Source: Ponticaulis sp.
GTDB taxonomy: Bacteria > Pseudomonadota > Alphaproteobacteria > Caulobacterales > Hyphomonadaceae
Direction: 5' to 3'
Length of the DNA: 46,804 bases
Assembly: GCA_002701295.1 (NCBI GenBank)
Contig: NZUJ01000028.1
Coordinates: 1-46,804 of the forward strand
Below are positions 20,956 through 24,413 of the stretch, piece after piece (position 1 is the first letter of the stretch; each line of letters opens with the position of its first letter). The position numbers were made by a program, and so were the translations under genes. The notes beneath the pieces were generated by a model that made no database searches, was not told the origin of the DNA, and saw only the letters and a list, made by a program, of their open reading frames with translations.

Positions 20956-22014
20956 ATGCGAATGACCGGTATTTCAATCGTCTTTTCGATCTGTCTTGGA
21001 GTGCTTGGTGCCTGCTCTCCGTCTGCGAAAGCACCTGAAACCCAATATGATTTCGCCGCTCTTACAGACGGTCGACCGCCTGTTGAGAAATGCGCTGGCT
21101 TTTTGAACTCCATTCTCAGTGACGAACTCGGGGATGACTATCGAAACCGCAAAAACATCGACGACATCTATGTCGAAACGACGTGCCAATGCATGGTTGA
21201 TGCTCAGAGCCAGACAATTTCAGACATTGCTCCGGATGATCCGGAAATACGCAATCTAATTCTAAATCTCATCTATTCGCCTGACGTGTTGGCCATTCTG
21301 ACAAACTCTGACCGCTATCCTGACGGCCTCGCCCAGTTCGAAACCCATATAAATAGTCTTGCCGATTCATCTGAGCCGTCAGGTTACGATCGATTAATCA
21401 CGATTTTTGAAACCATTGGAGCGAACTTTGTTGACCACCACAAATACATCGAAACAGAGGGACTAGCGGTCTGCGACGAGGTGAGATCCAGACAACTGCA
21501 ACGCTATCCAGCACCCAGCCTGGAACAATCCATCGCGCTCGAAGAACGCGACCTGGCCCTGCAGCGACTGAACCATGATCCCGGCGTGAGCGTCGCGCTG
21601 ATGGAAGCCTATCTCATGTCTGACCGGCTGTCGCAGGATTGTTTCGACATCATGGAAACGTTTCACGCTATTGAGGCTCGCACAAAACGTATGGCATGCG
21701 GCGACGCCTATCACAGGGGTTTATGCGCAATCGAGTTTGAGGAAATCGAGGCGGATTTTCCGCAGCTCATCCAATCAGAACTCGACTTTGTGAAGAGTTA
21801 TTCAAACCTCGCATCTTATCTCAACACCACACGAACAACGGCAAGGATCGAAGACCTGACCGCATTTGTTGAGGACATGTCCCCTTACCTGCCTTTGTCG
21901 TTTGACGAGTATCGCAATGCGGTGGCGGCACTCAGCCAATGGGACCAAGCGGCTTACCAGGCACGCGTTGAACTACGCCGTCAGAAATTAATCCGTGAGA
22001 CCACCGGCTTCTGA
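20956..22014 (+). CDS. Hypothetical lipoprotein with a Cys-x-Cys motif
   Basis: A 352-residue protein with a lipoprotein signal (lipobox LGAC, Cys20), so probably anchored in the envelope. The mature part is mostly helical and acidic. It contains VEKCAGF, then TTCQCMVDAQ, then AVCDEV, a spacing of Cys / Cys-x-Cys / Cys that recalls the modules of the secreted protein at 2599-3405. Further Cys occur at SQDCFD, MACGD and GLCAIE. No family or enzyme motif is recognised. ATGs at 20956 and 20962 are both possible starts. It is transcribed away from the REC-REC gene, with 179-233 bp between. Confidence 0.78.
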   Translation: MRMTGISIVFSICLGVLGACSPSAKAPETQYDFAALTDGRPPVEKCAGFLNSILSDELGDDYRNRKNIDDIYVETTCQCMVDAQSQTISDIAPDDPEIRNLILNLIYSPDVLAILTNSDRYPDGLAQFETHINSLADSSEPSGYDRLITIFETIGANFVDHHKYIETEGLAVCDEVRSRQLQRYPAPSLEQSIALEERDLALQRLNHDPGVSVALMEAYLMSDRLSQDCFDIMETFHAIEARTKRMACGDAYHRGLCAIEFEEIEADFPQLIQSELDFVKSYSNLASYLNTTRTTARIEDLTAFVEDMSPYLPLSFDEYRNAVAALSQWDQAAYQARVELRRQKLIRETTGF

Positions 22015-22046: not shown

Positions 22047-22061
22047 GTTCTTGTTTTGTTC
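22047..22061 (+). promoter_or_regulatory. LexA-type SOS box (GTTC-N7-GTTC)
   Basis: GTTCTTGTTTTGTTC is an exact match to the direct-repeat LexA site used in Alphaproteobacteria (GTTC-N7-GTTC). It ends 26 nt before the ATG of the radical SAM gene. It overlaps the best -35 candidate there (TTGTTT at 22051-22056, 17-nt spacer, TATTTA at 22074-22079). Repression by LexA and induction by DNA damage is the natural reading. The predicted transcript start falls at or next to the ATG and there is no SD, so the mRNA may be leaderless. Confidence 0.65.
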
Positions 22062-22087
22062 TTTTTGTCCTGATATTTATCCCGGGT

Positions 22088-24413
<2,326 letters not shown>

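Follow-up and report, generated by a model that had tools for sequence, protein, structure and literature searches.

Control of a gene named splB by LexA was predicted for Alpha- and Betaproteobacteria (Sanchez-Alberola 2012, PMC3323433). SplB (COG1533) is also listed as SOS-regulated in several groups, including the Bacteroidetes (PMC8565304), and has been described as an SOS gene (PMC3765255). Two early SOS genes of Caulobacter bear GTTCttgttatGTTC, and their induction by mitomycin C was measured (PMC12700426). In spore photoproduct lyase (SPL) itself, the hydrogen donor is an essential fourth cysteine, and the exchange C141A inactivates the enzyme (PMC3742179).

Here, we describe a locus of Ponticaulis sp. 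in a window of 46,804 nt, the whole stretch of DNA that was analysed, in which GTTC-N7-GTTC precedes a radical SAM gene of the PA0069 family (Table 1). Sequence comparison makes it highly probable that this site is an operator for the organism's own LexA, placed on the leaderless promoter of a damage-induced gene, and that the gene encodes a radical SAM enzyme of SPL fold that acts on DNA.

Table 1. Features of the radical SAM locus, numbered by position in the window
Feature	Position	Strand	Basis
Predicted LexA operator GTTC-N7-GTTC, GTTCTTGTTTTGTTC	22047..22061	+	Exact match; box at equivalent position in 119/140 alphaproteobacterial orthologues
Predicted -35 element TTGTTT, within the LexA box	22051..22056	+	Spacer TTG in 71-82% of 120 alphaproteobacterial boxes, at -35 if ATG = +1
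Predicted -10 element TATTTA, 17 nt after the -35	22074..22079	+	Matches TAnnnT at -12..-7 of 84 orthologues, shifted by 2 nt
Predicted transcription start, leader 0-2 nt	22086..22088	+	Position of the -10 element
PA0069-family radical SAM gene, 378 aa, [4Fe-4S] cysteines C96, C100, C103, SPL fold	22088..23224	+	NF033668, 496 bits; alignment; model and fold search
ccrM-like N6-adenine methyltransferase gene with RAMA domain, next gene after a 107-nt gap	23331..24413	+	Pfam N6_N4_Mtase and RAMA; synteny conserved in Ponticaulis

The sequence-only reading had reported a perfect GTTC-N7-GTTC site 26 nt ahead of the start of the radical SAM gene, and this is exact in sequence and coordinates: GTTCTTGTTTTGTTC is separated by 26 nt from the ATG at 22088. 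By count alone, a single box is not significant, as the window holds three matches versus 1.7 expected and at least three were reached in 24 of 100 shuffles. Genome-wide, 109 sites versus 61 for a reversed-letter control suggest a regulon, while the count leaves individual sites undecided. The box at 22047-22061 owes its significance to conservation in orthologues and not to its number in the window. Of 289 alphaproteobacterial genomes, 155 contain the family, 143 of them with a match above the cut-off; sufficient upstream sequence was available at 140 loci, for which the 450 nt preceding the family-profile start were examined. An exact sense-strand box was present in 119 of these and a reversed one in 3, compared with 0-4 for each of the controls (spacings from 3 to 13 other than N7, the reversed-letter motif, and positions inside the gene). 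About twelve of the 18 loci without an exact box show a box with one mismatch near the usual position, and about five orthologues have no recognisable box, though lexA is present in their genomes; a lack of lexA as the cause of box-less orthologues was ruled out, lexA being found in all 50 genomes checked. The absence from orthologues of close relatives, which the sequence-only reading had held to count against itself, did not occur: all five Ponticaulis or Hyphomonadaceae relatives carry the box 38-41 nt ahead of the ATG. It is also found at loci of Microvirga, Ensifer, Methylobacterium, Sphingobium, Rhodobacter and Acidocella. Whereas the intergenic sequence flanking the box has diverged between orthologues, the box itself and some of the -10 region are retained. 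Four Acetobacteraceae orthologues (L052, L093, L098, L103) have a second, oppositely oriented box about 50 nt from the first, and the pair may serve a divergent gene as well.

The LexA box of Beta- and Gammaproteobacteria is CTGT-N8-ACAG. Among 65 orthologues from these two classes, this motif lies upstream of 18 (other spacings: 0-1); it precedes none of 143 alphaproteobacterial ones, and GTTC-N7-GTTC is found upstream of none of the 65. That the gene bears the operator type read by the local LexA is the strongest evidence for LexA as its regulator. Most of the gammaproteobacterial orthologues sampled have neither box. Predicted SOS control of the family is therefore the rule in Alphaproteobacteria and extends to Pseudomonas and some of the betas, but is not universal.

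The genome has one lexA, with GTTC-N7-GTTC 32 nt from its start, and further boxes at uvrA and comM, both named as SOS genes of Alphaproteobacteria in PMC3323433; recA has a site with one mismatch. The marks of an alphaproteobacterial LexA regulon are thus found together, namely a box in the promoter region, conservation in orthologues that tracks the motif of the class, and boxes at lexA and core SOS genes. Two other sites of the same genome lie outside the window. One (L148:1707-1721, contig C9) overlaps the start of a gene for a C5 cytosine methyltransferase with HTH domain and is possibly a further LexA target, or chance. The other, GTTCCGGATTTGTTC (L150:1668-1682, contig C11), lies 18 nt ahead of a fragment of a gene for a 549-aa SMC/RecN-like ATPase, a possible further SOS gene.

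Among 120 alphaproteobacterial boxes the spacer itself is conserved, roughly as TTG(T/A)TTT, and the first in-frame ATG most often lies 23-27 nt beyond the end of the box, with a mode of 24. In 84 genes this interval is 22-27 nt; they show prominent T at -12, A at -11 and T at -7, and a -10 score of at least 4 is reached at -14..-9 in 35 genes (shuffles: mean 6, maximum 13). Counting the ATG as +1, TTG falls at -35 in these genes and, after a spacer of 17 nt, TAnnnT at -12..-7, while a Shine-Dalgarno-like tetramer is present in only seven of the 84. This layout is probably a leaderless promoter covered by LexA, in which the middle of the box serves as the -35. In the window, no Shine-Dalgarno-like tetramer was found ahead of the ATG at 22088, and since no ATG, GTG or TTG lies in frame above it, 22088 is the earliest possible start. 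A generic consensus sigma-70 scan found no promoter, because TTGTTT and TATTTA each match the consensus at only three of six positions. The promoter was therefore judged by position-specific base frequencies across orthologues, and it is from these comparative positions that we infer the two elements of the window, both of which are weak. The ATG lies 2 nt further downstream than in the 84 orthologues, which places the predicted start at about 22086; a transcript that is leaderless or has a 2-nt leader is probably the best reading. At this level, the earlier proposals that the box overlaps the -35 and that transcription starts at about the ATG without a Shine-Dalgarno sequence both stand, the former because the conserved TTG of the spacer falls at -35, the latter strengthened by the equal spacing in 84 orthologues.

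We infer LexA binding, damage induction and leaderless translation from these features. In the undamaged cell, LexA would sit over the -35 of the only evident promoter of the gene and block RNA polymerase. Upon DNA damage, activated RecA would trigger self-cleavage of LexA and free the -35, and transcription would then begin at the AUG or no more than about 2 nt from it, so that the mRNA would have no leader or almost none. The encoded protein would be an SPL-fold radical SAM enzyme, most likely acting on damaged DNA, though not via the cysteine/tyrosine pathway of SPL; its DNA substrate is suggested by fold and regulation.

The protein matches the NCBIfam model rSAM_PA0069 (NF033668) with 496 bits, versus a cut-off of 360. 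The second-best family, the Rv2578c-family radical SAM proteins (NF038135), reaches 223 bits, below its cut-off of 430. In phage records only partial matches with 25-34% identity were found. For the AlphaFold2 model (mean pLDDT 79.7), the best Foldseek match is SPL (E 1.4e-8), and in the fold comparison the SPL structure 4fhc reaches Z 19.3 (rmsd 3.5, 273 residues), with the next family at Z 15.8. Only the fold comparison pointed to SPL; a search of solved structures by sequence profile missed it. The Pfam SPL model PF20903 gave no match to the protein at E up to 10 and none in its own genome, and it is present in only 2 of 142 alphaproteobacterial genomes. The CxxxCxxC cysteines C96, C100 and C103 are invariant in 222 homologues, and no fourth cysteine that could act as hydrogen donor is conserved among them. 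FEAACTSD of SPL corresponds to IALGxNTD in the family, with T, A, S, V, G or I at x. Comparison by hhalign of the family with three SPL-like sequences gave 94% probability, with an alignment that is doubtful around the key cysteine, and the cysteine argument therefore rests on the absence of a fourth conserved cysteine. The description of the protein as spore-photoproduct-lyase-like thus holds for the fold and fails for the chemistry, for which the essential cysteine is missing. PA0069-family proteins should not be named spore photoproduct lyase, as the modelled likeness is one of fold only.

If GTTC-N7-GTTC had arisen by chance in this AT-rich intergenic sequence, it would have no regulatory role, and the number of sites in the window, which lies inside the shuffled expectation, agrees with such a view. 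Conservation specific to N7 in 119 of 140 orthologues, the fixed distance to the ATG and the replacement of the motif in betas and gammas argue so strongly against it that we regard chance as ruled out for practical purposes. It is also very improbable that the protein is a true SPL which repairs 5-thyminyl-5,6-dihydrothymine by the SPL mechanism. The nearest solved fold is that of SPL and the alphaproteobacterial gene is named splB in the literature (PMC3323433), but 0 of 222 homologues have the fourth conserved cysteine whose loss in C141A abolishes activity (PMC3742179), and the Pfam SPL model does not match.

A wider regulated unit is a more serious alternative, though we consider it unlikely: a LexA-controlled operon would reach rnhB and/or the cell-cycle methyltransferase gene ccrM, and damage would alter RNase HII or adenine methylation. 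The gene for RNase HII, rnhB, lies downstream on the same strand in 68 of 137 alphaproteobacterial loci; in about 30 the two genes almost touch, and in 57 ccrM comes next. Co-regulation of rnhB with the radical SAM gene is plausible. In Ponticaulis and in the window, ccrM directly follows the radical SAM gene after a gap of about 105-111 nt, and rnhB is absent from this interval (23224-23331 in the window); read-through from the predicted SOS promoter into the ccrM-like gene is possible. Against an operon, the gap ahead of ccrM is mostly 80-200 nt (107 nt in the window), which leaves space for a promoter of its own, and half of the alphaproteobacterial loci lack the linkage. The ccrM gene of Caulobacter is transcribed from a separate, CtrA-dependent promoter. 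Upstream, a 352-aa ORF without family match (20956-22014) separates the radical SAM gene from a response-regulator gene. In the five Ponticaulis relatives this ORF is missing there, and the response-regulator gene is directly divergent from the radical SAM gene. PA0069 proteins may be a class of their own among radical SAM enzymes, induced in the SOS response to repair a DNA lesion by non-SPL chemistry; their conserved leaderless promoter would be the LexA operator itself, and in many Alphaproteobacteria they would be co-expressed with RNase HII, a proposal that we hold to be somewhat short of an even chance.

The much larger sample confirms the predicted membership in the SOS response of a widespread radical SAM enzyme, which follows LexA through a change of its binding motif. 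Such consistent control of the damage type makes the enzyme a promising candidate for a direct DNA-repair reaction not yet described. The arrangement is fixed, with the operator on the -35 and the AUG at about +1, and offers a simple test case for SOS control of a leaderless message.

In comparison with the described systems, the alphaproteobacterial splB of the literature is probably the PA0069 family, because true SPL (PF20903) is so rare in alphaproteobacterial genomes. The proposed tie between this radical SAM family and DNA damage is supported, but its novelty is not, as it was predicted in 2012 (PMC3323433) and SplB is listed in PMC8565304; since LexA control of splB had been predicted, the present finding adds a further case to a regulatory link already known. 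In the open-access literature searched, no LexA paper for PA0069 or Rv2578c was found, nor was a linkage of ccrM with rnhB in the open literature. Within the literature searched, which included few subscription journals, what appears to be new is the probably leaderless layout kept across orthologues, the lack of the cysteine, and the linkage to rnhB and ccrM. PMC3323433, in its accessible part, treats species with several chromosomes and says nothing of promoter geometry, a missing cysteine or neighbouring genes, yet it shares with our locus an SplB-like radical SAM gene under the class-specific LexA box in both classes. With SPL of Bacillus and Geobacillus (PDB 4fhc) the protein has the radical SAM CxxxCxxC motif and the overall fold in common at about 11% identity, whereas only SPL has the hydrogen-donor cysteine (C141 in Bs, C140 in Gt) and a match to PF20903. 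The SOS genes of Caulobacter are genes other than the radical SAM gene, and leaderless transcripts are unmentioned in that paper, but the operator GTTCN7GTTC is the same and GTTCttgttatGTTC is almost identical to GTTCTTGTTTTGTTC (PMC12700426).
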